Source of the DNA: Chondrilla cf. caribensis
Lineage: Eukaryota; Porifera; Demospongiae; Chondrillida; Chondrillidae
Length of the DNA: 64,000 nt
Assembly (NCBI GenBank): GCA_964020155.1
Contig: OZ026546.1
Span: 5,113,900 to 5,177,899 of the forward strand
Direction: 5' to 3'
Part shown: in pieces, positions 13,260 through 63,671 of the stretch
Position numbering within the stretch: position 1 is the first letter of the stretch
Layout of the letters: each line of letters starts with the position of its first letter
Translations under genes and position numbers: made by a program
Notes under the pieces: generated by a model
The model's input: only the letters and a program-made list of their open reading frames with translations
Databases searched by the model: none
Told to the model about the DNA's origin: nothing

Positions 13260-13355
13260 TCACACAGCTGCATATGTTACTTCGTCTGCTGTTGAGTGGA
13301 TTACATTAATATTTCCTTTACGATGGCCCGAGAAGTCGAGAGTGGCATATGTGAT
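13260..13355 (-). CDS. R2 terminal exon: tandem ITIMs
   Basis: Begins right after cttacag with ITYATLDFSG, ends DEVTYAAV-stop. Both tyrosines meet [SIVL]-x-Y-x-x-[ILV], spaced 25 residues apart. Homologous exons are 28266-28361, 46128-46223 and the orphan 42543-42635. Confidence 0.9.
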   Translation of the reverse strand: MTYATLDFSGHRKGNINVIHSTADEVTYAAV

Positions 13356-13610
13356 CTGTAAGGAAGTAGTGATGATGCAATGGTGTCATTTTCAACCATT
13401 TTTCAAAACAACTACTGTAAAGTGATGCACATCACAGGATAATCCACTACAAATTATAAAAGAACTTAACAGAAATGACACAAACTTTGTAAGGAGGATA
13501 TTATAGAGATGTAATGTGTTTTTAAGGATTCTTAAGACTATCATGTGTACACAGGGTACTTTTGTCAAGGGTCTGTCCCACTAGACTGTCAATAGTGATA
13601 TACTGTACGG

Positions 13611-13680
<70 letters not shown>

Positions 13681-16600
13681 CAGGTTCCAATAATCGGAAC
13701 ATAATAATGTACATAGTAGATGTTAAGCAATACTGTAGATCTCATAACTGCACAGGAAGCTTCTCAAACACACCCCTTCCTCATTTCCTTGCTGTTCAAC
13801 TGTTTCATCCGTGATGACATCCTGTAGACAAGTACAATGGGATAAGTTAATTACATTGACAAAATCCACTCAGTCTGGTAGGTATATGTGCGTACAAAAA
13901 GTAAAGAGGAAACAATGGAAACAATGGACTGTAGGTGAGGAGATGGACACTCACTACCTGGAAGACTAATGTACATGAACACACCTCATCATCATCTCCT
14001 AGCTGCTCTGCTGTTTCGTAAGTAACATGCTGCACATATGAAGAGGAGCAGACAAGACAAATTATTGATAACATTGAGACATACATAGTGTGACCAAGTG
14101 TTAACTATTCAGCAATACGTACATATAAGAACACGCATAAACCAATCAACAATGCAAAGTGAGAGGCACTCTTCCCCCACACAAACATACCTCTTGCTTA
14201 TTGCCTATTTGATCCTTGTTTTCCTCTCCATCATTAAAAAACTGGATATAAAACAGAGTTTGAATAGGTATATATTCTTTGTGTGTCTACATGTACAAAC
14301 ATAAGTATGTTGGTACATGAGCATCAGGCTAGGTGGACACAAGCAAACCACTTAAAAAGACATCAGGAATTTGTTCTGAAATGACCACCTCAAGGTGTTT
14401 TATGACATAAAGGCAACACACCTTTCCCTTGTTTACATTCTGATGCTCCTCCTCCTCCCTAGGGTGATGGGACTTCATTAGCCTGTCAGTGGAGAGAATT
14501 AATGGTCACCAGCAATACAGACAAGGACAGTGTGAAACATATACATACTCTGTAGAGTTGCATCTGGGAGACTTATCTATGGAACAGAGGAAGAGTCAAA
14601 ACAACATGTGACAAATGTGATAACATAATTATAGTACTTACAGTACGCTCAGTTTAATATTAAAAGCAGAAAGTCATAAAATAACAAAGTTCATAAGTGC
14701 ATAGTCCATAATTGACATGGAATACTTCAAGTAGTCATTCAGGTACATTTACAGCTATACAATAATGATCAATACGTATGTGCATGTATTCTGACCTTTC
14801 CTGAAACAGCCACAACACCAGAATACTTCACAGTAGCCTACAAGTACACAGGAAATAAAAAGGGTTCTATATGATCATGAAACATACTCACACGCGATAT
14901 TCACTATAGTGTAAGCCATACATCACTGAGCATAGGAAAACAGAAGACATACAACAGTACAAGTGCCTCACTTTTATTTCTAAAGCAGCAATATTTGGCA
15001 ATGAGAACTCCCAGGGGGTAGATCAAGGGTATGAGCAGTACCAGGAGTACTAGAGCAGCCAGGGGAGCTGGTGATGTGCTAACTGGAGTATCTGGAGAAG
15101 TATCTATTACAGACAAGATCAAAAATGAGGTTTTCAACATAGGGTGCATGGATCATGACATAACATGACACATACAAACAAATGTCCTCCCAGCTATACT
15201 GTAACTATGTACAAATAGAGAATAGGTATCCCATAATGTACAAGTAAGGGGAACAGGGAAGATTAATGACTGTATCATTCCAGGATCAGAGATAGATGTT
15301 GTGGACATCCTCATGTTTTAGGTCAAGTAGTGTACAATAACAAAACTTGAAGCCATATATGTATGTACGCACAGGAAGGAATTCGGTGGAATTGCACTTA
15401 CACTTACCATTACTATTGCTGTTGGAGGCAACGCAGAAACTGGTGTCTGTGCAAGAAAGAACTATTACATATATACTGTGGGATTCAACTGCTGTAGTGT
15501 AATGAATTGCTACAATTGTTGCAGAGGAAGGATGCTTTAGATTTCACAAGTAGGAAATAATATGTACATAAGCTGATTGATTTTCAGAATAGGAGTCAAA
15601 ATTAATATAATAATTTAGAAATTAAGCAATGCTTCAATAGTGTTTCATCCTTGTCGATGAAGAAACTGGTACCTTCCTCCTGTGAAATACGTATTATGTA
15701 GCACACAAGATCTCACCAATCTGGAAAGCTTCAGTCTTGTTCCTGGAGGTGCCACACACCCTACTATTGAGAGTTACAGTGAAATTATACTTGTTACTTT
15801 GAGTAAGACCAGTGATAGTACATGGACTGGTTGTACATTCAGCACAACCTGGTGATGGTGGAGTACAGCTAACTGAAGTGGTCATGTCAGCAGGTTCACT
15901 TGGTTGGGTCCACTGTAGAGTAACAATGTCACAAGAGCCCGACTCTGCAACTACATCAGTAGGTGCACCTAGTTCTACAGAAGGTATAGGATACTTAAGC
16001 AGCAATACACTTATTGCTGTGACCAATCAATTGCAGCAATGGAAATTTAGAAACAATGCATCTTATTACAGGAAAATGACTACTATAATAAAGTATATAC
16101 TACAGATTATATATAGAGTTGGCAATGTATTATTATAATATTATAATTATAAGGCTTGTCTTTGAGGCACTTAACATAATGTTGAAGACGTTATCATTCT
16201 CCAAAATGTCTTCATCCACTATTAAACCCTCAACTCGGTGCACACTGTTAGTTGTAGCACAATAGTCTAGTGGGTACCACAATTACATGAACATATTTAT
16301 TATTTTACACGATCGATCTCACCCATGGTTCTTACTACTGTTGTATTCATGCTAGCTCTGCACCCTCCACTACTGAGAGCCACAGTAAACACATACTCAG
16401 TACTTGGATTGAGACCAGTGATAGTACATGGACTGGTTGTACATTCAGCACAACCTGGTGATGGTGGAGTACAGCTAACTGAAGAGGTGATGTCATTAGG
16501 TTCACTTGGTTGGGTCCACTGTAGAGTAACTGTATCACATGACTCCACAACTGACCTCAGATTAGTAGGTGCATTCAGGTCTACAGAAATTACAATCAGA

Positions 16601-19600
16601 TTATTACTAACATAGCTACAGGATTAACATCCTTCACAAGACATCAATGGAAATTTAGCAATGTGCAGTGCATTAATTATAACTGTACTGCATGCATGGC
16701 AGTATGTACGTATGCCTAAGTATGTATGCCTCACTCATATTGGACCAATAATTCACTAAAGACAAATAGGGAATTCTATGAGCCTGTATACATTGTAGCA
16801 ATAATTAACATACATATACGTATATGTACATACGTATGTATATTTTAAACAATATACGTACTAGCAAATCATACCAAGTAGGAGAAATTATTAGCTGATA
16901 GAAATTGATGATAAAAATAGGTGTTCATTTATTTACAGACTGTACTTATATTAATAGTTACAATTGTAATTGATTCAATTGTCTATATACCACAAATTTC
17001 AGATGCCTGACACAACCATACATGCACCCATGACACACTGGATCTCACCCATTGTTCTAGCTGAAGTTGTGTTCATGCTAGCTCTGCACCCTCCACTATC
17101 GAGAGTCACAGTAAACACATACTCAATGTTTGGATTGAGACCAGTGATAGTGCATGGACTGGTTGTACATGCAGTACAACCTGGTGATGGTGGAGTACAG
17201 CTAACTGAAGTGGTGATGTCATTAGGTACACTTGGTTGGGTCCACTGTAGAGTAACTGTATCACATGACTGTACAGTCACATCAACATTATTAGGTGCCT
17301 GTAGGGCTACAGAAAATACAGTAATACACATCATGGTATATCCTTAATGACAAATTTACTAATCCATGTACATGAAATCTTTGAGTATATATGAACCCTG
17401 TACTAATCTTAACTCATCATGAACACTGACTCCATTATCCTACGTAAAATTCAACGCTTAAAAATCCTTCACCTACAACTGTTCTCTCTACTGAGGGACA
17501 CTTTTTGATGCTTAGAAGATAACCACGGAAGTGTGAAAGAATAGCCTTGCCCTGTTTGGAAGAATCGAAGATTCACGGCCAAGCAGTGACTTTTACATAG
17601 GGTGTTAAAGTGTTAAAGGCAGAAAATATACCACAACTCATACTACACTGAACCCTCGAGACAAAGACCCGAAAGGCTAAAATTCCAGCCAATACTCTGC
17701 TTAGCAGAGATTGACAACTCAGAACATTGTCCAGTGCTACTGATGAGGAGTGGTTTTCTCCGAAAAGGCCTTCTAGCACATTGGCAAAGAAAGGAACTTT
17801 ACCAATTCGGATCAAAAATGCTTTACCAATGAATATGATCCTTGCCTTAATGATAGACATATCGTTCTGTTCAAAATATTTGGCTGCTGCCATATTTTTC
17901 TTTTTGACACTCTTGATCTCACCTCTTGTTCCAATCCCTGTTGTTTTCATGGACGTTCCGCATTTTCCACTATTGAGAGTCACAGTAAAGACATACTCAT
18001 TACTTGGATTGAGACCAGTGATATTACATGGACTGGTTGTACATTCAGCACAACCTGGTGATGGTGGAGTACAGCTAACTGAAGTGGTGATGTCATTAGG
18101 TTTACTTGACTGGGTCCACTGTAGAGTAACTGTATCACATGTCTCTACTTTTGCAACGACATTAGCAGGTGCACGCAGTCCTGTAGATAGTAAAAGCCAT
18201 GACAACACACTTAGCAAGTAATCAATGCAAATTCAATTTGGAAACAAATGTACAGAACATGTTACCATACCAAATTTTCTTGTGAAAAGTAACAGAGAAT
18301 GCTGAGAGCACAGTGAATGATGCAATACATAACATAGGTATGAAACACATAGAATTTATCAAGTCTGTCCCATCACCCTCATGTCATGTTTGAGATCACA
18401 AATGATGAAATAGTAAAATGGAGGCACAGGATTTGAACAAGGCCAGATCAGCAGATGAAGGATTGATATGCACTGATGATTATTTTGGCAACCTACGCAC
18501 CACTGAATGTAGGACATACAGCTACTAACTGTAATTACACAATTTACATCAAATCATCAATTCCAAACTGCTGCCAACCTATTATGATAGTCAAAATGAA
18601 ATATTCTCATGAATACCTACATACTTTGGACTGACCTTGAGGTCTTCAATGTCAGCGGACTAACGTACATAATATGTGGTAGGATCTGAGAAAAGGGGTC
18701 TTATGGCGCTGTTGTGTAAACTGAGATACGAGTCAAAACATGTTTTCATGTAATTTTTTTGAATTTTTTTTTCTGCGATAAATCCAATCTAAATGTTTAG
18801 TAGAAGGTTCCCTGAAAGCGCGGTGACCGTTCGATCTTGCGTTATGGAGCTACTATTAATTATTATCTACCGAAAATACGCCATTTTTATTCGTTACGAA
18901 GTTATGCGGACACCGCGATTCACGCGCGGAATGGAATTATACAAGTCTAGTCTACAGGCCCTGATGACGTCACGAATTATACGAAGATATACGGAATATT
19001 CGGCCGTAAGCAATCATTGCATTTTCTCGGAATGGTGGTTACGTGTATGGTAACATTCAATCGCGTGTATCTTCGGAACCGAATGAGCTATACGGAAATT
19101 TAAAGCGGCATTCTGTAGATTAGTACACGTGTTTTAAGTTAGTAGGGATAACTCAAAATCGAATGTTAGCGCCATAAGACCCCTTTTCTCAGATCCTATA
19201 TTATATATAATTATTATAATTATTGGTTTAGTTAATTATACCAAATCTGAAGTTTAGGAATTGACAAACTTTTATGGATAAGTGCTAAATTAAATGTGAT
19301 TACATGGTTATCAAAGTAGACAACATATTATCTCCAAAAATACAGGAGGTGCGAGTGAGTTGAAACTTACTCTAGCCTAGTGTAGTCATGACAAAAACGT
19401 TAAATAAATGTAGGCAAATCAAGGTATAAGGCCTAGATGGTGGACCAGTTAGAAGGATGGGTCCAGATGCATATAATACCTTCACATATATAAATCCCTG
19501 TACATGTACAAAATTTAATTTAGTCTGTTAATACACGTAGCTAAACCATATACTAGTATAACAACTTACATGTATGATAAAAAAGGATAATATAAAAGGT

Positions 19601-20962
19601 ATGTTTCTTAACTGACACAAATCTCGCATAACCACTCACCTACTGATATACTAGCCATTCCCCAAACACTACCATCATCCTTGTTAATACACTGAATAGT
19701 TCCTCCATTGTCTGACTTACTGAATCCAGAGATAGTGATCCTAGACACACCAGTCTGCAGTGTTTGTCCGGTATCGGGAGACTTAATCCTGGAATTGGTC
19801 ATGGCTTCATTTCGTGCCAGGAAAGGTCCCTCACTAACCCCACTCAATCCACTTGTAGTCCATTCAATTGGTTTATTAGGTATTGCACAATCAAAGGTCT
19901 TTTTACTACCACAATCCACCGTGATGGTGCCATTTGGAGTGAGCATACCTACACGAAAAAAGATTGGCAGATTGAAAATTAATAGTGGCCGGAAAGTATC
20001 AATTAAAACGAACACCACCTACATTAAGCACGTCTTGAACGCCATAGAGATTAACTCAGTGTAGTAGAGCATCAATTATTGGACACATAAATTTGCTTAT
20101 TTTTTGATAACTATAAAACCTACTGACTCCCAATAAACTGCGTTTTATAGACCATTACATGTAGTCGCTCTCCACTCATGCAGGAAGATCCTCGTAGCTT
20201 ATCGCATCGTTCTGCTAGAGACGATCAAAAAGTGTCCGAAAATAATCCGTATTCGGAGAGAGCCGGATTAGCTTGCGCACAGACTTCACTACAGAGTGGA
20301 GAAGCGACAAAGAACCCCGGAAACATCACAAGTTGCCGATAGGAATCTGTATTGAGGAATAACGCCATTCAGCCTATGTAAAGTCCCAAAATATTAATAG
20401 ACTAGTACAAAATTCGTCCGACATATTATGTTTTGATCTTTTACAAAGGGTTAGACAACATGTTCGGATTTCCTGAAAGTGATACATATCCTCCTCTAAC
20501 TTTCACATTTCAAAGTAGATCACGTAGAGCTATTACTTCTGATGTTTTCTCGATACCTTGTCGCTTCTCCACTCTGTAGTGAAGTCTGTCCGCTAGCTAA
20601 TCCCTCTGTCCGAATATTTATTATTATCGGACGCCTTCTACTATCTTCTCTATCAGAACGATGCGATAAGCTACGAGGATCTTCCTGAGTGGAGAGCGAC
20701 TACATGTAATGGTCTATAAAATGAAGTTCATTGGGAGTCGGTAGGTTTCACAGTTTTCGTGAAATAGCCAATATTAGGTGTCCGAATATACGTAGATGGT
20801 GCCCGATAATAGATGCTTTACTCTATACTATACTAAATTGATTTCTATGGCTTAAAAGACTTACTTACTAACAACTAAACCGGACGTACGTAAAGGCTCA
20901 CCTTGCACAACATTTGACACTACAATTAGAATGAAGGATATGTTTGAAGACGAAACTCTCAT
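13260..20962 (-). CDS. R2: Ig + four FN3 receptor with ITIM tail (complete)
   Basis: Thirteen exons read high to low: signal 20902-20962; Ig 19640-19948; FN3 17923-18180, 17049-17306, 16323-16580, 15717-15974; stalk 15408-15446; transmembrane 14972-15103; Cys-rich 14796-14837; then 14549-14576, 14422-14482, 13985-14029, 13774-13821 and 13260-13355. All borders are AG/GT. The total is 1893 nt, predicting 630 aa with no stop. Residues: signal 1-20 (MRVSSSNISFILIVV...), Ig 21-123, four 86-residue FN3 units 124-467, membrane helix about 495-517, YCCF plus a second cysteine cluster, a Glu-rich juxtamembrane part, and ITIMs at Tyr602 (ITYATL) and Tyr627 (VTYAAV). By established rules a phosphorylated ITIM pair binds tandem-SH2 phosphatases, so an inhibitory receptor is inferred. 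It is divergent from R3. Confidence 0.85.
13615..13677. repeat. (CA)n microsatellite in the last intron of R2
   Basis: Pure dinucleotide run. The last introns of R4 (28616-28637) and R6 (46533-46614) have one at the same place, with different lengths. Confidence 0.95.
18675..19200 (+). mobile_element. 526-bp TIR element (copy 2) with an 86-codon ORF
   Basis: Same element as 667-1195 in reverse orientation, inserted in the R2 intron between the Ig and first FN3 exons. The homologous R6 intron at about 50240 reads through without it (acgtacataatgatt), showing an insertion after duplication. The ORF at 18793-19053 is intact and near-identical to copy 1. Confidence 0.88.
20055..20829. mobile_element. 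Foldback element with ~215-nt arms
   Basis: The inner arms 20107-20322 and about 20547-20765 are inverted copies (for example gtagtcgctctccactca / tgagtggagagcgactac), and weaker outer complementarity extends to about 20055 and 20829. The loop of about 220 bp is non-coding. It lies in the R2 intron after the signal exon; the R4 and R6 introns lack it. A non-autonomous foldback or hairpin MITE is likely. Confidence 0.75.
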
Positions 20963-22274: not shown

Positions 22275-22327
<53 letters not shown>

Positions 22328-23868: not shown

Positions 23869-25523
23869 ATGATGACAGTCCCCTCCACTATAATAATATC
23901 CTTTATACTAAGTTTAGTATTGAATATTATACAAGGTCAGCCTTTATGTGTGTTTTAATCATTATTATAAGTGTACCTTTTATGCTATTATAGAGATTAA
24001 CTTTACTACAGTAACTATACATCTATTCATCAGTTTATCTGCCAATCTTTTTCTTTTATCCTGTAGGTACACTCACTCCAAATGGCAACGTCTCAGTGGA
24101 TTGTGGTATTACACAGAACTTTACTTGTAGGGCACCTGGTGAACCAATTGAATGGACTACGAGTGGATTGAGTGGGATCAGTTAGGGACCTTTCAGGGCA
24201 CGAAATGCAGCCATAACCAATTCCAGGATCACATCTACCAATACAGGAGGTGATTCTCAGACTAGTGTGTCTAGGATCACTATCTCTGGATTCAGTAGAT
24301 CAGACAATGGAGGAACTATTCAGTGTATTAATGTGAATAATAGTAATATTCAGGGAATGGCTAGCGTGAGTATTTCATGAATTTACATTAATTATTAGCT
24401 GCTTACCATAGTGTGTTCTACTGTATTTTCTGTAGAATCTGAAGTACATGCACCTACTAAATTAAATGTAGTTGCAGCTGTTGAGCTATATGATACAGTT
24501 ACTCTACAGTGGGACCAACCAAGTGAACCTGATGATATCACCACTTCAGTTAGCTGTACTCCACCATCATCAAGTTGTGCTGAATGTACAACCAGTCCAT
24601 GTACTATCAGTGGTCTCAATCCAAGTACTGAGTATGAGTTCACTGTGACTCTCAACAGTGGAGGGTGCAGAGCTAGCATGCATATATATATATATGAATA
24701 CCTCTATTGAAACAGCTTGTGAGTGTGACTATTTGGTAGTAAGTGAGCCAGACATCTTATTTTGTAGGCCTATATTCCCATAATTTTCCTTAACAATTCA
24801 TTGACAAATGCAACGTTGGGATATTATGTTAAATTTCTAAAATCATCTATTTACTAAATACAGCATTATATTAATGCCTCCTTCGCAAATCTACATGCAC
24901 AGAATGTACTATGTGCATAATATGCTATGTAGATATACTGCACGAATTGCTAGAGTGTAGTTCTTGAATTGTCTAGAATTGCTAAAGTGTAGCTTCCTAA
25001 TACACATGACTGCCAAAATTCCAAAATAATTTCCAATGCATTAATAGTCCAATGAAAGTCACCCTTTATAGTGCAAACTCATTCTTGTATAATTTATCAT
25101 TATGGTGTATGCCTACAATGTCTCAATTAACATGCAGTGCGTCAAGCTCATGCAACACATTGTCTTTGTTATTTCTTGTTATCATAGACCATGGTGTATA
25201 GTCCTACTATTTAAATTTTGTAATCATTACATCTATGCTGCAACTGTGTACATCATTCCATTTGTATAGGTAAAATATCATGTCCGACATGTACATCTCA
25301 GTCAGCACCACTTCTAGCTGGCATCATACCAACTGTTGTGCTGTTGTTGGTCAACATCATCAGTGTGGTGGTCGTCTTCCTCATAACAAGACACTGCTAC
25401 AGGAAGACATCTCAAAAGAGTTCTCCTTCAAAAGGTGAAGAGGTCTATGATCAAGTGGAGGGACCAAAGACCTATGAAGACATTGTGATGACTGACAGTC
25501 CAGCATATGGTCCAGTGAAGTAG
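23869..25523 (+). pseudogene. R3: Ig-FN3 receptor with ITAM-like tail, broken ectodomain
   Basis: Signal exon 23869-23935 (ATG at 23869 or 23872), Ig from 24067, FN3 from 24436, transmembrane-tail exon 25270-25523. The Ig exon has an in-frame TAG at 24183-24185, where relatives have the Arg codon of GISRGPF. Its 3' end is altered, so the usual donor is gone (ATGGCTAGC then gtgagt, phase 0). The FN3 exon carries an AT-dinucleotide stretch near 24681 and then a tail resembling another FN3 type, with a frame break. The last exon is intact: helix GIIPTVVLLLVNIISVVVVF, then VYDQV, TYEDI and AYGPV. Probably a pseudogene, unless read-through or exon skipping rescues it. Confidence 0.75.
25270..25523 (+). 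CDS. R3 transmembrane and ITAM-like tail exon
   Basis: Cysteine-bearing stalk (SCPTCTSQS), membrane helix, ITRHCYRK anchor, then tyrosines in YDQV, YEDI and YGPV. YEDI-x7-YGPV has ITAM spacing but ends in Val, not Leu/Ile. YEDI also resembles the pYEEI type bound by Src-family SH2 domains. Confidence 0.85.
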
Positions 25524-26404: not shown

Positions 26405-26602
26405 ATTATGGGAAGAGGCAACATCATCAGTGTCGTACAGTGGTCGCTGTCCTCGTAACAAGACACTGCTACAAGAAGACATCAGAAAAGATTTCCGCTT
26501 CAAAATTCTATAGCAGATATTTATGAATTTGTGTCCCAGGAGAGATTGAGAACCTATGAAACCATGAAAATGATTGACAGTCCAGGTTATTTTGTTCAGT
26601 GA
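26405..26602 (+). pseudogene. Relic of a plus-type transmembrane-tail exon
   Basis: Sequence matches the R3/R5 last exon (acatcatcagtg, ataacaagacactgctacaag, agtccaggttat). The membrane segment is shortened and the frame shifted. The tail still reads RTYETM ... SPGYFVQ-stop. It lies about 900 bp 3' of R3, so a second receptor once ended here or the exon was duplicated alone. Confidence 0.75.
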
Positions 26603-28265: not shown

Positions 28266-28361
28266 TCACACAGCTGCATATGTTACGTCATCTTCTACTG
28301 AGTGGACTACATTAATATATTCTTTATGATGGCCCGAGAAGTCAAGATCCGCATATGTGAT
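28266..28361 (-). CDS. R4 terminal exon: tandem ITIMs
   Basis: ITYADLDFSG at the start and DDVTYAAV-stop at the end, with the same 25-residue spacing as R2. The linker differs (HHKEYINVVH) while both motifs are kept. Confidence 0.9.
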   Translation of the reverse strand: MTYADLDFSGHHKEYINVVHSVEDDVTYAAV

Positions 28362-31300
28362 CTGTAAGGGAGAAGTGATGGTTCAATTGTGTCACTCTCA
28401 ACTGTTCTTCAAAACAACTTCTGTGAAGTGATGCACATCACAGGATTATCCACTACAAATTATGAAAGAATTTGAACAAAAATAACACAAGCTTTGTAAG
28501 GAGGATATTATAGGGATGGTATGTGTTTTTAAGGATTCTGAAGATTATCGTATGAACACAGGGCACTTCTATCAAGGGTCTCTCCCACAAGCCCATCAAT
28601 AGTGATATACTGCGTGCACACACACACACACACACAGAGAGGGTATACAAGTTTCATTCATCACTATGTAACAGTGTACATACATAATTGTAAAAGTGAT
28701 ACTGTAAAAACAACTACTCATGAAGCTACACAAACACACCCAATTCTCAGAGCCTTGATGTTCCACAGTTTCATCCGTGATGACATCCTGTACACAAGTA
28801 CAATGAGGCAAGTGACACAATCCACTTGGTCTGATAAATAAATGTGTGTGCAAAACGTAAATGGAAGAAAATGGAAAACAATAGACTGTAGGTAAGGGGA
28901 TGGACACTCACTACCAGACGACTACTGTACATGAACACACCCCATCATCATCTCCTAGCTGCTCCACTGTTTCATAAGTAACATCATGCTACACATATGA
29001 TAAGGAACAGACAATACAAATTATTAATATCATCAAGATGGTTACACCATGTTTGTGAGTATACAAATTGTGTGACCGCGTGTTTTGGATATGCTGTTCA
29101 TATGAAGGAAAACAGAGGCTTGAATAGGTATATATTCTTTGCATATGTACATATACAAAGACATGTATGTCAGTACATGAGCATCAAACTAGGTAGACAC
29201 AAGCAAACCAGAAGGATATCAGTAATTGGCTCTTAAATGATCACCACAGGGTTTCCTTTGACATAATTAAAAGGCAACAAACCTTTTCCTTGCTAGCATT
29301 CTGATGTTCCACCTCCTCCCTATGGTGAAGGGACTTCATTAACCTGTCAGTGGAGAGAATTGATGGTCACCAGCAATACAGACATGAACAGTGTGAAACG
29401 TATACGTACTCTGTGAAGTTGTATCCAGCAGACTTAACTACAAAAAAGAGTCAAAACAATACATGACAAATTTGAGAACATAATATAGTACTTACATGCT
29501 CAGTTAAACTTTCAAAGCATAAAGTGATAAAACAACAAAGTTCATAAGTGCATTGTGCATATTTGATATGGAATACTTCAAGTAGTCATTCAGGTAATAA
29601 TCTATGCTACATTCACAGACTGCAATAATGATCAACACGTATGTGCATGTATTCTGACCTTTTCTGAAACAGCCACAACACCAGAATACCTCACAGTAGC
29701 CTACAAGTACACAGGAAATAAAAAGGATTCTACATATATGATCATGAAACATACTCACACATGCATGACACTCACTAGTGTACGGCATGCATCACTGAGC
29801 ATAGGAAAACAGAAGACATACAACTGTACAAGTGTCTCACTTTTATCTCTAAAGCAGCCATATTTGACAATGAGAATTCCCAGGGGATAGAACAAGGGGA
29901 TGAGCAGTAGTACTAGGACTGCTAGAGCAGCCAGGGGAGCTGATGAAGGGGCAACACAGGAACTGGAGTCTGTGCGAGAAAGAACTATTGCATAATTAAT
30001 ATATACTGCGGGATTCAGCTGCTGTAGTGTAATGAATTGTTGCTCCTTGGGAAGGGTGTATCAGATTTCACAAGTATAGGAGATATGTACATAAGCTGAT
30101 TGAATTTCCGAATGCAATTCAAAAGTATCCTAAATACATACTTAGAAGTTAAACAATGCTCAATAATGTTTCATCTTTGTCAATGAGGAAACTGGTACCT
30201 TCCTCCTTATGTATTATGTAGCACACGAAATCTCACCAATCTGGACAGCTTCAGTCTTGCTACTGGAGGTGCCACACACACTACTATTGAGAGTCACAGT
30301 AAACACATACTCAGCAGTTTGAGTAAGACCAGTGATAGTACATGGACTGGTTGTACATTCAGCACAACCTGGTGATGGTGGAGTACAGCTAACTGAAGTG
30401 GTGATGTCATTAGGTTCACTTGGTTGGGTCCACTGTAGAGTAACTGTATCACATGATTCCACAACAGTCCACAGATTAGTAGGTGCATTTAGGTCTACAG
30501 GAAGTATAGTCCACAGGATTAACATACTTTACAAGTCATCAATGCAGATGTATCAATGTGTAAGTGCATTTTGATACTGTATGAATGCCAGTATGAATAC
30601 TTCACTCATTTTGGTCAGAGAATTACTAAATACAAGCAATGAATCCTATAAGCCTACATTGTTGCATGGGGAATCAATACATACTGGGTGCCTTGTAAAG
30701 TAGCATATGGCTAAAAGCCTCCCCAGTTTAATTAGGTTTCCTTATAGCCTTACATATGTATAATTTAAACAACAATAGCAGCAAATCATACCAAGTAAGA
30801 GAAATCATTAGCTGATAGGATTTAATGATAAAAACCAAAGTTCATTTATTTACAAACTGAACTTGAATAATTATTGATAATTGGAATTGAAATTGATTTA
30901 ATTTGGTTATACGTATACCACAAATTTCAGACACTGGGCACTAACCATGCATGCACCTACGTATCACACACTTAATCTTACCAATTGTTCTAGCTGAAAT
31001 TGTATTCATGCTAGCTCTGCACCCTCCACTATTGAGAGTCACAGTAAACTCATACTCAATACTTGGATAGAGACCAGTGATAGTACATGGACTGGTTGTA
31101 CATTCAGCACAACCTGGTGATGGTGGAGTACAGCTAACTGAAGTGGTGATGTCATTAGGTTCACTTGGTTGGGTCCACTGTAGAGTAACAGTATTACATG
31201 ACTTTATAGTTGCAACGACATCATTAGGTGCACGTAGATCTACAGAAAATACAGTAATACACATCATGGTGAGTCGCTAATAAAAAAACTTAGTTTACTA

Positions 31301-46532: not shown

Positions 46533-46614
<82 letters not shown>
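46533..46614. repeat. (CA)n microsatellite in the last intron of R6
   Basis: About 80 bp, the longest of the three equivalent repeats. It generates a spurious Cys/Val frame on the minus strand. Confidence 0.95.
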
Positions 46615-46622
<8 letters not shown>

Positions 46623-49286
46623 AAGTACACATTTCATTCATCACAACATATAACATTGTGCATACATAATTGATATTAAGTGATACTGTAAAAACAACTA
46701 CTCAGGAAGCTACACAAACACACCCAATCCTCATATCCTTGTTGTTCAACAGTTTCATCAGTGATGATATCCTGTACACACAAGTAAAATGGGATGAGTC
46801 AATTACATTGACAAAGTAAAGAGAAAGCAATAGGAAACAATGAACTGTGTGTGAGTGGACAGACACTCACTACCCGGAAACTACATACTGTATGTGAATA
46901 CACCCCATCATTGTCTCCCAGCTGTTCATGATCCACTGTTTCATAAGTACCAACATGCTATGGAGAGGAATAGACAAGACATTGTTATTCATATCATCGA
47001 GATGGTTACATACGTAGTGTTTGTGAGTATACTAGTTTGGTGACCAAGTGCTGACTATGCAGCCATATAAGGACACACACAACTGCTCAACAATGTGAGA
47101 GAATTTCTTCCCACACACAAACACACCTCTGTTTTATTTCCTATTAAATTTTGATTCTTGTTTCCCTCCCCATCAGTAACAAATTGGATATGATATAGGT
47201 AAATATATATACTCTGCTTGTTTATATGTACAAACACATGTATGTCAGTGCATGAGTATCAAGCTATAGGTGGACACAAGCAATCCAAGAAGGATATCAG
47301 TAATGTGATCTGAAATTACCACCTCAAGGTATTCTTTGACATGAAGGTAACACACCTTTACTTTGCTTGCATTCTGATGCTCCATCTCCTCCCTAGGGTG
47401 AGGGGACTTCATTAGCCTGTTAGTTAAGAGAACTAATGGTCACCAGCAAAGCAGTGTACAGTGTAAAACACATACGTACTCTGTGGATTTGTATCTGGGA
47501 GATGTATCTACAGGAAAGATTCAAAATAATACATGACAAATTTGATAACATATAGTACTACTATGCTACTAGTGCTCAGTTTACCATTATGAGCAGAAAG
47601 GTCATAAAACAACAAAGTTCTTAAGTGCATTGTGCATATTTGATAAGAGATACTTCAAGTAGTCATTCAGGTAATTCTGTATGTTACATTTACAAACGGC
47701 AATATAACCAACACATACGTATGACATTGTGCATGTATCCTGACCTTTCCTGCAACAGCCACACCACCAGAACACTTCACAGTAGCCTACAAGTACACAG
47801 GACATATGAATGGGTTCTATATGATCATGTAACACACACTCACATGTGATACTCACTAGTGCACACCATGCATCAGTGAGCATAGGAAAACAGAAGACTT
47901 ACAACTGTACAAGTGCCTCACCTTTATTTCTAAAGCAGCAATATTTGGCAATGAGAATACCCAAGGGGTAGAACAAGGGTATGAGCAGTACCAGGAGTAC
48001 TAGAGCAGCCAGGGGACCTGGGGAAGTGAGTGAGTATTTGGAGAAGTATCTATTACAGACAACACAAAGAATGACGTTCTCAACATGTATTGGATCAAAC
48101 ATGGTACATACAAACAAATTTCCTGCCAGCTACACTGTAACTATGTACAAAGAAAATGGGCATCCCAAATTGTACAGGTAAGGGGAAGAGGGAAGATTAA
48201 TGACTATATCATTCAAGGATCAGAGGTAGCTGTTGCAGACCCCCTCACATACTAGGTCAAGCAGTGTACAATAACAAAACTTGAAGATATGTATGTATGT
48301 ACATGCACAAAGAGGAAGGAATTCAGTAAAATTGCACTTATACTTACCATTACTAATACCTTTGGAGGCATCACAGGAAGTGGCGTCTGTGTGAGAAAGA
48401 AATATTGCATATATAGCGTTGCAATCAGCTGCTGAAGGGTAATGAATTGTGGCATATCAGAGGTAGGATGATTCAGATTTCACAAGTAGGAGATATATAC
48501 ATAAGCTGACTGTATTTCAGAATACAAGTGAAAATTAACCAAATTAATGTACGTACAAATGTTCTTAGAATACGTTGGAACAGGGAAAATAAACAATGTT
48601 TCGATAGTGTTTCATCCTTGCCAATGAGGAAACTGGTACCTTCCTCCTGATCTATATGTATTATGTAGCACACAAAATCTCACCAAACTGGAAAGCTTCG
48701 GTCTTGTTACTGGAGGTGCCACACACACTACTATCGAGTCACAGTAAACTCATACTCAGTACTTGGATTGAGACCAGTGATATTACATGGACTGGTTGTA
48801 CATTCAGCACAACCTGGTGATGGTGGAGTACAGCTAACTGAAGTGGTGATGTTATCAGTTCCACTTGGTTGGTCCCACTGTAGAGTAACAGTATCACATG
48901 ACTCTACAGTTGCAACTACAATAGCAGGTGCATGTAGATCTACAAAAAAATACAGTAATACACATCATGATGAGCAGCTAATAACAGTTTACTCATTAAT
49001 GCACATAAATTCCTGAACATATGTATAGTAATAATACATATATTACGTATATGTATATATGTACAATGTCATGTGTCTGTCTACATAGGTAGCAACCTTG
49101 TGGGCAGTGGGGGGCAGATGCCCTCACGAGTACCTTTGAGGGGTGAAAAGGCCCCAACTAACTGAGTCATATTTGTACACAAAATTATTATCATCCATAT
49201 AATACCTTCAATATAGGTCCATGCAACTGGCTAAAATTGTACTTCAAGGTGGGGAGTTATATGGATGTTTTATCTTTAAACATATA

Positions 49287-49303
49287 CCCTAACCCTAACC
49301 CTG
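49287..49303. repeat. Short interstitial telomere-like repeat
   Basis: ccctaaccctaaccct (2.7 units of CCCTAA) in an R6 intron. The homologous R4 position (31570) reads only gaccctgt, so about 11 bp was gained. Confidence 0.7.
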
Positions 49304-51125
49304 TGCTATAGTCTTGACTGAATTTGAGTATAATACTCGGCTCAATAATTGACATATTGTTATGTTCAAAACATTTGTTTGCTGCCATATTGTCATTGTT
49401 TGGCAAACTTGATCTCTCCTCTGGTACCAATCCCTGTTGTATTCATGGAAGTTCCACACATTACACTATTGAGAGTCACAGCAAAGACATACTCAGTACT
49501 TGGATTGAGACCAGTGATAGTATACATGGACTGGTTGTACATTCAGCACAACCTGGTGATGGTGGAGTACAGCTAACTGAAGTGGTGATGTCATTAGGTA
49601 CACTTGGTTGGGTCCAATGTAGAGTAACAGTATTACATGACTCTAGTTTTGCAACTACATTAGCAGGTGCACGTGGTCCTGTAGATAGTAGAAGCCATGA
49701 CAACACACTTAGCTTGTAAACAACGCAAATTTGGAAACATACAGTACATATTTACCACACAAACTTCTTTGTGAATAGTGATATCCAACAGTGAATGCTG
49801 AGGATCATTAGTAGCATAGTGAATCATGCAATACAAACCACAGGTATACAATAGAACTTATCCAGTCTGTCCCACTCTCCCTGACCCCCCACTGCCATGT
49901 CATGTTTGAGGCCATAAATGATTGAACAATAAAGTGGAGGTTCAGGAATTGAACAAGGCCAGATCAGCAGATGATGGATTGACCTGCACTGGTAATAATT
50001 ATTAGCAACCCATGTACATGCTACTGAACATAAGACATTCAGGTACTAACAGTTACTGTAATTACATCTTTTACATCAGTCGTCAGTCGTCAATTCCATA
50101 ACAGTTCATCAACCACAGTAAGTGGTTGCTCATAAACTGCTGCCAACCCATTATGATAGTCAGGATGAAAGTTATGAAATATTCTCCTGAATAAGTACAT
50201 ACTTTGGACTGACCTTGAGGTCTTCTATGTCAGCGGACTTACGTACATAATGATTAATTACACCAAATCTGAAGCTTTTAAAGATAAGTGCTAATGTGAT
50301 TGGATATCAAAGCAGACAACATATCTAAAAAGAACACAGGTGGGGTGAGTGAGTTGAAAATTAGTCTAGTCGTGTGTACGTAGTCATGACACAAATGTTA
50401 ATGTAGGTAATTTGAAATCAAGTTAAGGCCTAGATGCTGGACCAGTTAGAACTAGGAGGATGGGCTCTACTCATATTCATGTATGCAAATGCCTGTACAC
50501 ATACAAAATTTAATTTAGTCTGTTAATACACATAGTTAAACCATATACCCATTATACAACAATTTACATGCATAATCAAACAGGGTAAAGGTATTCCTTA
50601 ACTGACACAAATCTCGCATAACCACTCACCTACTGATATACTAGCCATTCCTCGAACATTATTATTATTCGCGTTAACACACTGAATAGTTCCTCCATTG
50701 TCCGATTTATTGAATCCAGAGATAGTGATCCTAGACACACTATTTTGAACATCACCTCCTGTATCGGTAGACGTGATCCTGGGATTGAGTATGGCTGCAA
50801 TTCGTGCCTTGAAAGGTCCCCGACTAATCCCCTTCAATCCACTCGTAGTCCATTCAATTGGTTCATCAGGTATTGAACAAGCAAAGGTCTGTGTACTACC
50901 ACAATCCACTGAGACGTTGCCATTTGGTGTCAGCGTACCTGCGCGGAAAAAAAATACAAAATGGCAGATGATATTGATGAATAGCCGTATATGTTATTAT
51001 AATTGATCTGTATAACGTAAAGGCTTATTTGATAGTAGCTAAACCAGACGTAAAGGCTCACCTTGTACAAAATTTAACACTAAAACTAGAATTAAGGATA
51101 TGTTCGAAGCGGACGAGACTGTCAT

Positions 51126-53815: not shown

Positions 53816-54577
53816 ATGACAGTCTCGTCCGCATCGAGCAAAATATTATTATCCTTTATTCTAATTTTAGTGTTGAATATTGTACAAGGTAAGCCTTCAC
53901 GTCTGGTTTATTCATTATTAAGTGAGCCTTTTACACTCTAGAGACCAACTTCAGTCAGTCTGAGATTAGTAATCTGCTAGTCTATTGTTTTTTCACGTAG
54001 GTACACTTTCGCCAAATGGCAACGTATCAGTGGATTGTGGTAGTAGACAGAACTTTGATTGTTCAGTACCTGGTGAACCAATTGAATGGACTACGAGCGG
54101 ATTGAGGGGGATTAGTCGGGGACCTTTCAGGGCACGAAATGAAGCCGAAGGCAATCCCAGGATCGAGTCTACCGATACCGGAGAGACTTCTCAGGGTGAT
54201 ATGTCTGATATCACTATTTCTGGATTCAGTAGATCAGACAATGGAGGAACTATTCAGTGTGTTGTCGCGAATAGTAGTAATGTTCGGGGAATTGCTAGTA
54301 TATCAGTAGGTGAGTGGTCATGCAAGATTTGTGTCAGTTAAGGATTATCTCTTATTCTGTTTGATCATAACATGTAAGTTGTTATACTAGTATGCCCCAT
54401 ATTCTTAGTTCTAACTGATCCAGTATCTAGGCCATACCTTGATTTGCCTACATTATTATGTGATGTGACTATGCTAGGCTAGACTAAGTTTCAACTCACT
54501 CACCACGGGTCCCTGTAATTTTTTAGATATACGTATGCATGTTATTTGTTTTGATATCCAATCCCATTAGCACTTAT

Positions 54578-55930: not shown

Positions 55931-56979
55931 AGGCTCACGTCAATATGATCAGTTTTTGCACATACCTGATGTTGGTTCGCTCTGAGTATCATTCATGATT
56001 GTCCATCATTTCTGCCATTTTACTGTTCCCATGGTCAGATGTGTTTCCTAACTCATCATCGTGATATTGCAAAGAGCTGTTCAAATGTTTAAGATATGTA
56101 GAATAGCTAAATCCATGTGATACAGTTATTCTAAGCTGGACCCAACCAAGTGGACCTAATGACATCACCACTTCAGTAAGCTGTACTCCACCATCACCAG
56201 GTTGTGCTGAATGTACAAACAATCCATGTACTATCACTGGTCTCACTGCAAGTACTGAGTATGTAACTATACTGTGACTGTCAGTAGTGGACAGTGCAGA
56301 ACTAACACAAGTCTAACTATAACTAGAACAATTAATGGGTGAGATCACGCATGTCATAGGTGCATGCATGTTTAGCACATACATGGTATCTTTAAATTGT
56401 TGTATATAGATAATTTCAGCCTATTCTATATATTTCTATTAATTTTATCTATTCATGATCGAGAACATTTTGTAAACGAATGAGCATTAATTTTGTATCA
56501 ATTAATCCGGTCAGCTTAGTTTTTTTCCTACTTGGCATTGTTGCTATATTTATATCTGATATATAGGTATGTGTGTTTTGTAGATATTTATTCACTACGC
56601 TATTCTATTGTCTCATATTCACGTACTTATGGAAGTTCCACACATTCTACTATTGAGGGTCACTGTGAACAGATACTCAGTACTTGGATTGGATCGAGAC
56701 CAGTAATTGTGCAATGTCATGGATTTGATTATACATGTATACAATCTGGTGATGGAGTATACGTACAACTGTCTGAGGTGGTAATGTCTTCAGTTCCTTT
56801 TGGCTGGTTCCATCTAAATGTAACAGTGTCACATGACTCTGCGTTTGCAAGTACATTAGTAGGTACACATAATCCTACAGAAAGTGTATATCATGTATTA
56901 TAATAGTAAATCACAACTATTGCTATATGATCAACAATGGGCGGCACCACCTCCCCTTTTGATTTCTTTACTTAATTCA

Positions 56980-57235
56980 ATGACTTATTATATATTATTA
57001 TTATTATTATATTATTGAATTAATGTATATTATATAAGACTAGTAAGTAGTAATTAGTGTATAATAATATTTGTATATGTATAATATAATATGAGTGTAC
57101 ATGTGTATTATATTATGAATGTAGATAAATTATGATGTATTAGTATACATGTATTATTATGTAAATGTATTATGTATGTAGATGTATTACTGCATGGTAT
57201 ATTTATTTTGTAGATGTACACGTGTGTAGATAAAC
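56980..57235. repeat. AT-rich degenerate tandem repeat
   Basis: Repeated atgtattatgtatgtagatg-like units with about 90% A/T, in remnant intron DNA of R8. No coding content. Confidence 0.5.
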
Positions 57236-58020
57236 AGTAAATCACAACTCAGTAAGTAATAAATACAAATTTAGGAACATACAGTAAAATGTCATTTTGT
57301 TTATGAATTAATGTGTGTTCCCTTCACAGATGTCTAAATGTCTAACCATGAATGCTTTGGCATGCAGTGGTTGCATATAGTGAATCATGTACGCGTCGGA
57401 TAAAATTCATGGAATAATCATATTATAAGTGTTCAGTTCTTTTCAATTATGTATTTGAAGACTATCCACAGGCCTTCACAAAAGAAAATGCTGTTTTCAT
57501 TGTTGTAAGGCCCGGTTTCATGAATGATGCTTTGGAACAAGGAAATTCAACAATGCTTCAATAGTCTTTCACCCTCGAAGAAGCAGTTATTTTCCTCCTG
57601 TGCTTCATAATTGCTATTTTCACGAATGAGAATCTATGGGTCAGCCTGGACAATACCTGTTAGTAGACCTATCCATACTTAGACCTTCTTTTGAGAAGAA
57701 ATACTGCATTTGTCATGTCTTATGTCTCTTGTACATTTACCAATGTTTAAATTGTCATCAGGGTTTTTTCTCCATTGTTGACATGATGTTTTGTGTACAA
57801 GTGCCCTAATTCTTGACCGAAATTAATGATAGATGTCTGCTCTCAACATACAGGATTCCGTACATTAAAAGCTGACAGCCACTTAACATCTTACATACAA
57901 ATAAACATTACTGAGCATAGGTAAATTCCCCCCTTCCGACTCTGTCTGATCATCAACCATAATGTTAACATGCTAGTACAGATGAATTATAATTTCAAAT
58001 GTGTTGTCTTAAGACACATG
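57236..58020. other. R8 remnant intron/spacer
   Basis: Includes stretches matching R2-type intron DNA (aacaatgcttcaatagt, gaagcagttattttcctcc near 57548-57600), out of exon context. No gene is seen. Confidence 0.4.
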
Positions 58021-58053
58021 CACACACACACAAACACACACACACACACACGT

Positions 58054-58125
<72 letters not shown>
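58021..58125. repeat. (CA)n microsatellite, ~100 bp
   Basis: Longest CA run of the window, with one cgtgt interruption near 58050. Confidence 0.95.
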
Positions 58126-58126
<1 letters not shown>

Positions 58127-58267
58127 CTTACTCATCTGAATGAATTAAGTAGTCAGCTATCGATTGGTATTTATGCTATTTCCTATACATTGTCAATAAA
58201 TATTGATTTTCAAAGACACTAAATATGTTTTCCATTGTCTGCTACAGTGAAACCCGTTGACAGTGTA

Positions 58268-59065
58268 AACTATCAGGTATCAGGTATCAGGTAATCTTAT
58301 TTAGCCTGGGGAACCATTAGCCATAGGCTACTTTAGTGGCACCCAGAAAAGAAAAGAAAAATAAAGAATAAAGAAGTATAAAGAAGTAATGTACAAAGTA
58401 TAAAAGGTCTTGGAAGTCAAAATTAAAATTTAAAATTTAAAATTAAAATTCATAAAATTCGTAAATTCATGCAGCAGCAATACTAACAGGGGTCAAATGA
58501 ATATTAATAATAATAAAAGTGTCATAAAATTAACATGCACATGCAAACAATTGAAATTTAACATGGGTTAATAAGAAAATATTGATGACAAAGAGAATAA
58601 TAACTATTGAAGTCTGTAGTGTCTCTGATGTTCTGCGGAAGGGATCGCCACAGTGCTGCACCCATGAAGCTGAAAGATTTCTGTCCGTAGGAGGATCGGT
58701 TTGGAGGAAGATTGAGTTGGGAGGATGAAACAGAGCGGGTGTTGTAGTGGGAAGAAGGTGAAGAGAAAAGCTCAGAAAGATACGGAGGGGATTTAGAAGA
58801 CATACATTTGAACATGATTAGGGAAAGGTGAAACTTTCTCCTGGAAGCCAGAGTGGAGAGACCTAGTTCCCTACGAGCCACCGATGCTGAGGATCCTTTA
58901 CGCCTACGGAGGACAGTTCGACAGGCATAGTTGAGGAGAGTCTCTAACCTGTAAGCTTCAGACTTGGAGCACCCAGACCAGACAACATCGCAATAATCGA
59001 AAGAAGGGAGAATGTAAGATTTAAGGAAGAGAAGAAGAAGGGACCGAGGAAGAAACCATGAGACT
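58268..59065 (-). mobile_element. 5'-truncated LINE (CR1/L2-like) 3' end
   Basis: A single open minus frame from about 59050 to 58558 reads SYILPSFDYCDVVWSGC, ETLLNYACRTVLRRRKG, RRELGLSTLASRRKFHLSL, then PPYLSELF and SYGQKSFSFMGAALWRSLPQ. This is the thumb/C-terminal region of a non-LTR reverse transcriptase. A short 3' region follows, with a tail of three acctgat units (58272-58292), as CR1-like LINEs have. It is inserted in R8 remnant DNA. Confidence 0.8.
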
Positions 59066-59742
59066 ATGAACTATGACCATAACCATGAAACTATGACATT
59101 GTTTATTATAATTATGCCTAATATGCTTAAGACCATGAATGACAGACAGGCAGACAGCAAAACCACTTAGCTACTGATATAAGAGCCATTTCCTGAACAC
59201 TACTGTCCTCCATGTTAATATATTATACACTTATAATAGTTCCTCCATTTTCTGATATATTGAATCCAGAGATAGTGATAACGAAAATAAGAGTCTGACT
59301 ACTCTGTCCTGTATCAGAAGTGATCCTGTCATTTTTATAGCTGTATTTCTTGCCACGAAAGGCCCGGTATTCTTATCCCCCTCCAGTGATATTCCATCCA
59401 ATTGCTTTATCTCTGACGAAGTCTACAAGTGAATTCCTGTGCACTACCACAATCCAGTGAGACCATACCATTTGGTTTCACTCCACCTACACGATACAAC
59501 AGTTAGAATGGGGAGATTAATAGACAAAATTAATGCATTGCTATAGAGTAAAACATAGATTACGGCTGACACCATCTATATCGGACTCTACCGACTACTA
59601 TCCAAACTGGGTTCTATAACGTAAAATGCCAAGATAAACAAAGATTGCTTAATAATAACTAAACCAGATATAAAAGCTCACCTTGTACAACAAGTAAGAC
59701 TGAAATTAGAATCAAGAATACGTTTGAAAGAAAATCCATCAT

Positions 59743-60428: not shown

Positions 60429-60487
<59 letters not shown>
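60429..60487. repeat. (CA)n microsatellite
   Basis: Pure run of about 58 bp. Spurious Cys/Val frames lie on its minus strand. Confidence 0.95.
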
Positions 60488-60489
<2 letters not shown>

Positions 60490-61037: not shown

Positions 61038-61090
61038 GCACACACACACACACGCACGCACACACGCACGCACACACGCACACACACACA
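61038..61090. repeat. CA/CG-rich microsatellite
   Basis: acacacgcacg-type run. A related run at 61739-61822 sits at the equivalent place in the next intron, so the intron was duplicated with the FN3 exon. Confidence 0.85.
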
Positions 61091-61205
61091 TCATTTTTGT
61101 CATCCTCCTCACTTATGGTCATTTCACTTTGTATATACAGTATACTCACATTTGGACACATCTGAATATCAACTTATTTATCTTACCCCACATAATTACT
61201 TGTAG

Positions 61206-63671
61206 GTGTTCCTTCATGTCCCTCAAGTGTAGTAGCTGTTGCACATGACGACAATGATGCTATTACTGTTACCTGGCAGCAACCTCCTAATACTCCTCCA
61301 GTCGCATCCACTACTGTCACCTACTGTCCTACATCATCACCAAACTGTGGGTATAGTATGACCTGTACCAGTCCATGTAATATTAGTGGACTAGATCCTT
61401 GTGTGGACTATAACATTAAAATCACTCCAGCCAACAACTGTGGAAGTGCTACTGGATGTACTGTGAAAGGCATGATTGCTGCTTCTCAAGGTCAGTCATA
61501 ATATGTAGTTGCTTTGTCCCTTGGAACTTTTATATAGCGAACATTTGCACCAGCTGAGAATACCTCTTCATGGTTGGTCTGATGTATACAGTCAGTAATA
61601 CTTGCATATTAATTATTAAAATAATTAAGTCTATCCGTAACCAATGTGTGATAATAATATGTAGCTATTACTATTAATACAACACAGATTATATACCAAA
61701 TTATTCTATGTACATTAACTGCACACACATAATCAGACACAAAAACACACATGCACACAAACACACGCACACACACACACACGCGCGCGCGCATGTGCGC
61801 GCACACACAAAGACACACACACAGTTCATACTATTATTATGAATTAAAAACATATTCACACACCTTCATCTATCTGTCATTTCTCTTTGTATGTACAGTA
61901 TACTCACATATGGAAACATCTGAATATAAACTTATTCATCTTACCCCGCATGATCACTTGTAGGTGTTCCTTCATGTCCCTCAAGTGTAGTAGCTGTTGC
62001 ACATGATGACAATTATGCTATTACTGTTACCTGGCAACAACCTCCTACTACTCCTCCAGTCACATCCACTACAGTCACCTACTGTCCTACATCATCACCA
62101 AACTGTGGGGATAGTATGAACTGTACCAGTCCATGTACTATTAGTGGACTAGATCCTGGTACAGAGTATCAGTTTACAGTTATTCCAAACAACAACTGTG
62201 GAAGTTCTACTGGATGTACTGTGAATAGTGCTACTGCTCAGCTAACAGCTTGTTAGTGAGAGAGTCCATTTGTATATGTATGTGTCATCATTCTGAACAG
62301 TTATTGTACGTATTCCATACCCATGTTCCATCGCAATAGACCGATTGCGCATTGACATCATCCTTTCCGGTCATGAAGACCGGAAATGGTCGCGAAGGGT
62401 GTTCGTCGTATAGATTCTCATAGTAAGACGTGTTAATAGGTTATATTTTGTCCTTGGGAAAGGAGATTTCGGAACTGTACGTATTTATTTCTCGACTGAT
62501 TGTAAATATGCCACACCGCTGTGCTGTTCCCGGTTGTACATCCAACAGCAAGACTTCTCTACAGGTGTTTTTCTTTCCACAAGTTTCCATCTGATGCAGC
62601 TCTTCGTCGTAATCGGGCTAAAAACATACGTAGAGTTGAAAGTAAGGGAGTTTGGACTATTAACAGTTCCCCACGTGTGTGTACTAAGCATTTTACTGCC
62701 GAATTGTACCACGTAAATTCGGTATCAGGTAGAAAAAGAATGCACAAGACCACATGGACAAACAGAATTTTAACATCCAAGTCCAAGTAGGATTGCAACC
62801 CACTTCCAGCAAGAGGAAAGCACCTGCCAATGCCCCAGATGGAAACTTGTGAAAGGACGTGTGGAGAAGTCTTGCTGTTGGATGTACAGCCGGGAACATG
62901 CAGCACAGTGGTGTGGCATATTTACAGTTTGGAGAATCTCTTTTCACGCAGGCAAAATATAAGGTCAGAAGAAATAACAATCATATCTAAGCACGTGTGG
63001 ACTATTCTTTGACGCTACACGAGACAGCAAAATATATCCATCGTTTACACATACACTTATGAAGACGTACATCTATAACCACAGCTATACGGCGATCACG
63101 ACGGAATATAACACCGGTATATCACATACCGCTGAACCGATTCAGCTTTTTTCCAGATCTACAAGCACTTCGATAGGCTAGCCATCATTTCAGTTGTTCA
63201 ACGTTCAAATCGTCGGGAGATTTTCCACCAGGCTAGAGCCAGGAATGTCCTTTTTCGACAATCGGTACGTGTTCCCCATAGTAAAATCCTACCCATGACA
63301 CCCTTCGCGACCACTTCCGTTCTTCATGACGTCAATGCGCAATCGGTCTATTACATGTGACGAATACTTTGTTTTATACAGTTGTACAGTTCATGTCAAC
63401 ATGACAATAATACCCCCTTTTCATAGGCAAATGTGCATCTATGGAAGCACTACTTCTAACTGGCATCATCCCATCAGTTGTACTCCTGCTGTCCCACATC
63501 ATCACTGTAGTGGTTGCTGTCCTTGTGACCAGATACTGCTGTAATAGTTCATCTCAAAAGAGTTCTCCTCCAGAAGGGGAAGAAGTCCATGAACAAGTGG
63601 AAAAGCCGGCTGCCTATGAAGATATTCCAATGTCCACTAATCCTGCTTATGTTCCAGTGGTTCAGAAGTAG
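61206..63671 (+). CDS. R9: FN3-FN3-transmembrane receptor 3' half with ITAM-like tail
   Basis: FN3 exon 61206-61490 (GVPSCPSSVVAVAHDDN...), FN3 exon 61964-62251, and transmembrane-tail exon 63427-63671 (stop), all open, phase 1 and bordered by AG/GT. Both FN3 units are the CPTSSPNCG/CTSPC subtype of R1 and R5 exon 3. No signal, Ig or first-subtype FN3 exon is found upstream. The helix is GIIPSVVLLLSHIITVVVAV. The tail differs from R3/R5: the first tyrosine is His (EEVHEQV), but YEDI and YVPV keep the exact 7-residue spacing. A TIR element lies in the last intron. Likely a 5'-truncated member. Confidence 0.75.
61739..61822. repeat. CA/CG-rich microsatellite (duplicate intron)
   Basis: Mixed CA and CG run, with flanks matching those of 61038-61090 (ataatatgtagctattac and tacagtatactcaca). 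Confidence 0.85.
62335..63352. mobile_element. ~1-kb TIR element carrying a THAP relic
   Basis: aatagaccgattgcgcattg and caatgcgcaatcggtctatt are the inverted ends, and matching continues inwards through ggtcgcgaagggtgt. A second inverted pair inside (62508-62560 and 62870-62928, tgccacacc.ctgtgct) duplicates the start of the THAP relic in reverse. No clear target duplication is seen. THAP domains are the DNA-binding domain of P-element-type transposases, so a non-autonomous relative is plausible. It lies in the last intron of R9. Confidence 0.8.
62507..62790 (+). pseudogene. THAP zinc-finger domain relic
   Basis: MPHRCAVPGCTSNSK from 62507 continues after a frameshift near 62575 as FHKFPSDAALRRNRAKNIRR, a Trp (GVW) and RVCTKHFTAELYH. 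This gives the C-x4-C ... W ... C-x2-H layout of a THAP domain with its basic stretch. A stop follows the frameshift in the first frame. Confidence 0.78.

Follow-up and report, generated by a model that had tools for sequence, protein, structure and literature searches.

The window considered here, a stretch of 64,000 nucleotides from the sponge Chondrilla cf. caribensis (contig C1, positions 5,113,900-5,177,899; genome 137 Mb in 37 contigs), carries on its two strands a series of receptor genes and gene remnants, R1 to R9, assembled from signal-peptide, Ig, fibronectin type III (FN3), transmembrane (TM) and tail exons. Window coordinates of R1, R2, R4, R5 and R6 were checked by translation. 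Two of the minus-strand genes are complete predicted ITIM receptors: R2 (13,260-20,962; 13 exons, 617 amino acids) encodes a signal peptide, an Ig domain, four FN3 domains, a TM segment and a tail, and R4 (28,266-34,096; 12 exons, 531 amino acids) has the same layout with three FN3 domains. Both spliced models are free of internal stops, and all of their introns are GT-AG. The TM exon of R4 lies at 29,841-29,969 and its Ig exon at 33,608-33,916, for which AlphaFold2 predicts a V-type Ig fold (pLDDT 94.7), placing the domain in the Ig superfamily at the level of the model. The FN3 domains match the Pfam fn3 model above its cut-off (E values of 1.1e-7 and 3.8e-10). In R6 (46,128-51,125) the signal peptide, Ig, TM and tail exons are intact and both FN3 exons are damaged; the spliced frame is open when the FN3 exons are skipped. 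The last minus-strand member, R8 (56,690-59,372), is degenerate, consisting of an Ig remnant (59,226-59,372) and an FN3 remnant (56,690-56,872).

Minus-strand tails are encoded by a series of small exons. The TM exon is followed by two short exons, an exon of 20 residues, one resembling VTYETV, a related one and finally the last exon, which holds two ITIMs; E8, a small tail exon, was located by pattern. On translation the last exons read ITYATL...VTYAAV-stop in R2 (13,260-13,355), ITYADL...VTYAAV-stop in R4 (28,266-28,361) and ITYADL...VPYAAV-stop in R6 (46,128-46,223), and R4 has a third ITIM, VTYETV, in the exon HDVTYETVEQLGDDDG (28,941-28,988). An earlier note on this DNA had described consensus ITIMs in every surviving minus tail, and these translations bear it out. 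The third ITIM is full in R4 only; the corresponding exon ends in A in R2 and begins with G in R6 and is non-consensus there. In R2 and R4 the related exon lacks a tyrosine, and in R6 it has one close to the end. The window holds a fourth ITIM tail exon, absent from the earlier note, at 42,543-42,635 (minus strand; IQYAAL...VTYAAL-stop, type B) and is either an orphan or an alternative last exon of R6.

Every plus-strand gene in the window is damaged or incomplete. R1 (7,749-11,011) comprises Ig, FN3, FN3b and TM plus tail exons and is open from Ig to stop when a partial FN3 near 8,515 is omitted; no signal exon was found for it, and the second tyrosine of its tail is replaced by N. R3 (23,872-25,523) has a signal exon, an Ig exon interrupted by TAG at 24,183-24,185, a broken FN3 and an intact TM and ITAM-like tail (25,270-25,523). 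After R3 an extra, degenerate plus-type tail (YEFV...YETM...) can be recognized as a weak match at 26,437-26,600 on the plus strand. R5 (37,535-41,220), with Ig, two FN3, FN3b and a TM and ITAM-like tail (40,982-41,220), is open from Ig to stop, and its signal exon lacks an in-frame ATG. R7 (53,816-54,308) retains intact signal and Ig exons, followed by a truncated FN3 at 56,107-56,274, and no tail was found between it and the R8 remnant. R9 (61,208-63,668), composed of two FN3b exons, a TM segment and an ITAM-like tail, may represent R7's displaced tail. Ig exons thus begin at 7,749 (R1), 24,067 (R3), 37,535 (R5) and 54,000 (R7) on the plus strand, those of R2, R4, R6 and the R8 remnant lying on the minus strand. 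As noted previously, surviving plus tails share a YxxI/V pair, YEDI-x7-YGPV in R3 and R5 and YEDI-x7-YVPV in R9, with NEDI, one step off, in R1.

Other features of the window include an open frame on the plus strand at 3,359-5,548 with protease, reverse transcriptase and RNase H domains, which marks an LTR-type retroelement, and two sets of near-identical repeats, one inverted (661-1,198 and 18,672-19,209; 96%) and one direct (404-651 and 12,054-12,301; 97%), which are probably recent mobile copies; an R2 intron contains one of them. In the wider genome, silicatein, a hallmark of sponges, was looked for among cysteine-protease exons: three of five genome pieces showed the active-site stretch, all three of them cathepsin-type, which speaks neither for nor against a sponge.

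Exon-by-exon self-comparison of open frames yields three divergent minus/plus pairs in the window, R2/R3, R4/R5 and R6/R7, as had been proposed; R8, placed in the earlier note in a degenerate fourth pair with R9, is represented by minus-strand remnants. The start-to-start distance of 2.7-2.9 kb given earlier stands for R2/R3 (2.9 kb) and R6/R7 (2.7 kb), and R4/R5 measures 3.3 kb, which widens the range to 2.7-3.3 kb; gaps were taken between signal-peptide exons, that of R4/R5 running to the start-less R5 remnant. The array extends well beyond the window, which forms the middle of a zone of about 270 kb (C1:5.06-5.33 Mb). Within the sequence read from this zone there are 22 signal-peptide heads, 11 per strand, among which nine divergent neighbours form head-to-head pairs; seven of the nine are joined by near-unbroken sequence, with starts 1.2-3.9 kb apart, and the other two span unread gaps. 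The order repeated along the contig is ITIM tail, minus Ig, plus Ig, plus tail, with one element missing in some units. A blastn match between the 700 bases upstream of two heads is frequent: 93 of the 121 plus/minus comparisons give one, as do all 55 minus/minus and 38 of the 55 plus/plus comparisons. Two adjacent pairs have identical type-B ITIM exons (C1:5068827 and 5096903) located between their heads, and their plus start regions are 97% alike, pointing to a recent duplication.

Genome searches with single exons returned at least 74 plus-tail, 15 ITIM-exon and at least 116 Ig matches, counts for large families being lower bounds as each search used a single protein. All 15 ITIM-exon matches are on the minus strand (C1:5.058-5.319 Mb), and all 16 plus-tail matches within C1:5.058-5.330 Mb, some of them pieces of one tail, are on the plus strand. 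Plus-type tails outnumber the 15 ITIM tails, and at least 58 of the at least 74 plus-tail matches fall outside the zone, so that many lack an ITIM partner. A second cluster of related Ig exons, with identities up to 67% and all on the minus strand, is found at C1:7.04-7.12 Mb; ITIM and plus-tail queries gave no match there.

The two kinds of tail differ in how closely they follow the motif definitions, which are taken from the parts of PMC2832619 consulted here. All 15 minus tails carry the inhibitory consensus (I/L/V/S)xYxx(L/V), and both ITIMs together with the 3′ splice AG are kept in 15 of 15 ITIM exons, although the query itself contains the motifs and motif-less copies could escape it. 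Nine of these exons are of the ITYADL...VTYAAV type and six, two of them identical, of the IQYAAL...VTYAAL type. By way of chance expectation, 14 of the 1124 stops in the window that follow 31 open codons have at least two ITIM matches within their final 31 residues, four of the 14 being family tails. Among plus tails the ITAM-like pair is present in 18 of 20, as expected of candidate activating members of paired receptors, and most copies retain the YEDI-x7-YGPV spacing. The strict consensus (D/E)xxYxx(L/I)x6-8Yxx(L/I) is found in none of the 20, so that the plus tail is no true ITAM and is termed ITAM-like here. Database proteins resembling it (39 from ENA contigs, perhaps partly of the same genome) show the pair in 30 and the strict motif in none. 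An ITAM-like pair occurs in the last 38 residues of 34 of the 1124 open ends in the window, only three of which are intact plus tails; since the motif is this common by chance, the evidence lies in its conservation over paralogues.

Receptors of both strands share one Ig + FN3 design, in agreement with the earlier note and again from open-frame self-comparison. Amino-acid identity of the Ig domains is 75.8% between strands and 74.5% and 76.7% within them (the Ig sets omit, by length, the truncated copy at 5207422 and degenerate R8), and the Ig tree requires 9 strand changes against 7.9 with shuffled labels, and thus holds no strand signal, with none of its 20 inner branches well supported. By identity and tree alike, then, minus and plus members have similar ectodomains, as inhibitory and activating members of paired receptors do. 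Between strands the thirds of the Ig exon are 87, 81 and 90% identical and the flanks 57-71%; many upstream flanks take in the signal exon, and intron alignments are gappy. As silent-site divergence of the Ig exon between strands is 0.12 and the Ig domains form a single pool, this drop at the exon boundaries suggests gene conversion limited to the Ig exons of the two strands. The dN/dS ratio is 1.23 (0.90-1.69) for the Ig exon, 0.56 and 0.35 for the ITIM exons and 0.55 for the plus tail; the bootstrap intervals of the Ig exon and of each of the three tail sets span 1, and copy pairs are not independent. R1 was omitted, as divergent, from the identity, dN/dS, flank and silent-divergence comparisons.

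Candidate signalling partners are encoded elsewhere in the genome. Two genes on contig C12 have exons in the order SH2, SH2, phosphatase, and this architecture, together with the reading of the C-terminal SH2, the linker and the start of the phosphatase, points to SHP-type phosphatases; the one phosphatase exon searched had its best match in receptor-type phosphatases (1.7e-39), followed by SHP-2 (2e-31). A gene on C17 is, as judged from its tandem SH2 domains, a predicted SYK-type gene: SYK/ZAP-70 scored far above all others, SYK at 1e-26 and 4e-33 and the next families at 1e-10 and 7e-22. Tandem SH2 domains on C9 read like those of PLC-gamma. SH2 and kinase exons are clustered on one strand at C15:4.25-4.39 Mb; this cluster was considered as SYK and rejected, the one kinase tested being closest to CTR1/TNNI3K-type kinases. 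A big one-strand cluster of tyrosine-phosphatase exons at C6:4.3-4.85 Mb is perhaps an expansion of receptor phosphatases.

From these observations the locus is probably a head-to-head array of paired receptors, in which minus-strand genes with conserved ITIMs would inhibit and plus-strand genes with ITAM-like tails would likely activate through the same Ig + FN3 ectodomain. The paired-receptor interpretation put forward in the earlier note is thereby well supported at the sequence level by the opposite tails, the single ectodomain pool, the strict sorting of strands across some 270 kb and the SHP- and SYK-type genes of the genome, and is qualified in that the plus tail is ITAM-like and no strict ITAM. 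Such an array likely evolved independently of those of vertebrates.

Likeness to CEACAM, KIR, LILR, SIRP, Siglec, Alr and FcoR receptors is treated here as one of working principle, and no family membership is assigned. The closest known systems are vertebrate paired receptors, CEACAM in particular, with Botryllus fester co-receptors (FcoR) and Hydractinia Alr as invertebrate neighbours. Siglec-11/Siglec-16, KIR, LILR and SIRP likewise draw opposite signals from similar ectodomains, and Siglec-11 and Siglec-16 are reportedly held alike by conversion (PMC5701461). Activating members of the KIR, LILR, SIRP and Siglec type mostly rely on a charged TM residue and the ITAM adaptor DAP12, according to the sections of PMC2832619 used, whereas the motif here sits in the plus tail itself. 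Closer correspondence is seen with CEACAM, above all that of Xenopus, where ITIM and ITAM or ITAM-like members occupy one cluster in opposite transcription (PMC5112662 and PMC2832619, in the parts drawn upon). In the Xenopus paired receptors, as far as the portions of PMC5112662 drawn upon describe them, conversion is confined to the ligand-binding Ig exon and that domain diversifies, a pattern the sponge array appears to fit at the sequence level. The ectodomain differs, being Ig + FN3 here, and so does the scale, with seven to nine tandem head-to-head pairs against one or two per Xenopus CEACAM subgroup in the same portions of that source. Botryllus FcoR and Hydractinia Alr are invertebrate recognition loci whose receptors bear ITIM and ITAM-type motifs, and Botryllus genes also lie in adjacent pairs, but such a pair unites a fester-family gene and a co-receptor rather than ITIM and ITAM-like genes of one ectodomain family; a strand-sorted array is not described for either in the sections of PMC12065747 consulted. 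A search of the open-licence PMC literature found no sponge array of ITIM/ITAM pairs.

Other explanations of the locus have to be weighed against this one. It is very improbable that the array is mostly a set of decaying tandem repeats with motifs as leftovers: R1, R3, R5, R6, R7, R8 and R9 are indeed damaged or incomplete in the window, but R2 and R4 are fully open, and so are, outside it, two more genes on the minus strand and four on the plus strand, and the ITIMs are intact in 15 of 15 matches. The models are open through Ig, FN3, TM and tail for four of six minus genes (three were modelled outside the window, two of them open; the third has its tail at 5.240 Mb). Of seven plus genes modelled, four are likewise open, from signal peptide to tail; these all lie outside the window, and the first FN3 exon is shortened in the one that starts at 5.187 Mb. 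The exon finder behind the plus models favoured stop-free splice choices and imposed intron phase. Because open copies exist, a reading in terms of pseudogenes only is rejected. Somewhat less improbable, though still unlikely, is an adhesion family duplicated as an inverted pair, whose opposite tails would be real docking sites without the partners being used together. Ig + FN3 is a common design of adhesion proteins too, FN3 exons are very numerous in the genome (150 of 2016 candidates were scored), and plus-type tails are also plentiful beyond the paired zone; the separation of tails by strand (15 and 16 matches) and the exon-limited likeness across strands nevertheless fit immune-type paired receptors better, as does an Ig dN/dS near 1.2 against the lower tail values.

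A more serious, if still doubtful, possibility keeps the pairing and assigns the plus tail to uptake, its YxxV/YxxI motifs serving endocytosis or phagocytosis, such that plus-strand members would be decoy or eating receptors beside inhibitory minus-strand ones. The tail does match the endocytic ITAM-like form Yxx(L/M/V/I/F) given for CEACAMs in the parts of PMC2832619 consulted, most plus tails have three YxxV/I motifs, above what an ITAM needs, and the spaced pair of 18 of 20 tails is never a strict ITAM. The maintenance of the YEDI-x7-YGPV spacing in most copies and the SYK-type tandem SH2 gene speak against this reading; endocytic and kinase-recruiting roles can coexist.

On the paired-receptor reading, the opposite transcription of the two genes would let their Ig exons pair up and undergo mutual conversion. 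Brake and accelerator might thereby keep recognizing the same ligands, which may be self, non-self or microbial, as the pool diversifies. Homologous start regions could give the two genes matched expression in the same cells. On engagement, the ITIM tail would recruit an SHP-type phosphatase and the ITAM-like tail Src/SYK-type kinases, and the cell would read the balance of these opposing outputs. Taken further, and only tentatively, at somewhat less than even confidence, an early-branching animal may have evolved its own NK-like recognition system by copying, head to head and at least seven times over, a cassette made up of an ITIM gene, an ITAM-like gene and the start region they share. The opposite orientation would then drive conversion, holding brake and accelerator to one recognition domain while the pool diversifies, and matched opposing inputs would set a self/non-self threshold for each cell.

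Paired receptors are known best from vertebrate immune cells. The array described here is large and strand-sorted, belongs to an invertebrate and combines an ectodomain design of its own with ITIM motifs like theirs. For the recognition of self and non-self or of microbes, whose molecular basis is open in most invertebrates, it supplies candidate genes by name. If the interpretation is correct, matched brake-and-accelerator recognition arose more than once, and its genomic recipe, divergent genes with exon-limited conversion, would be repeatable.
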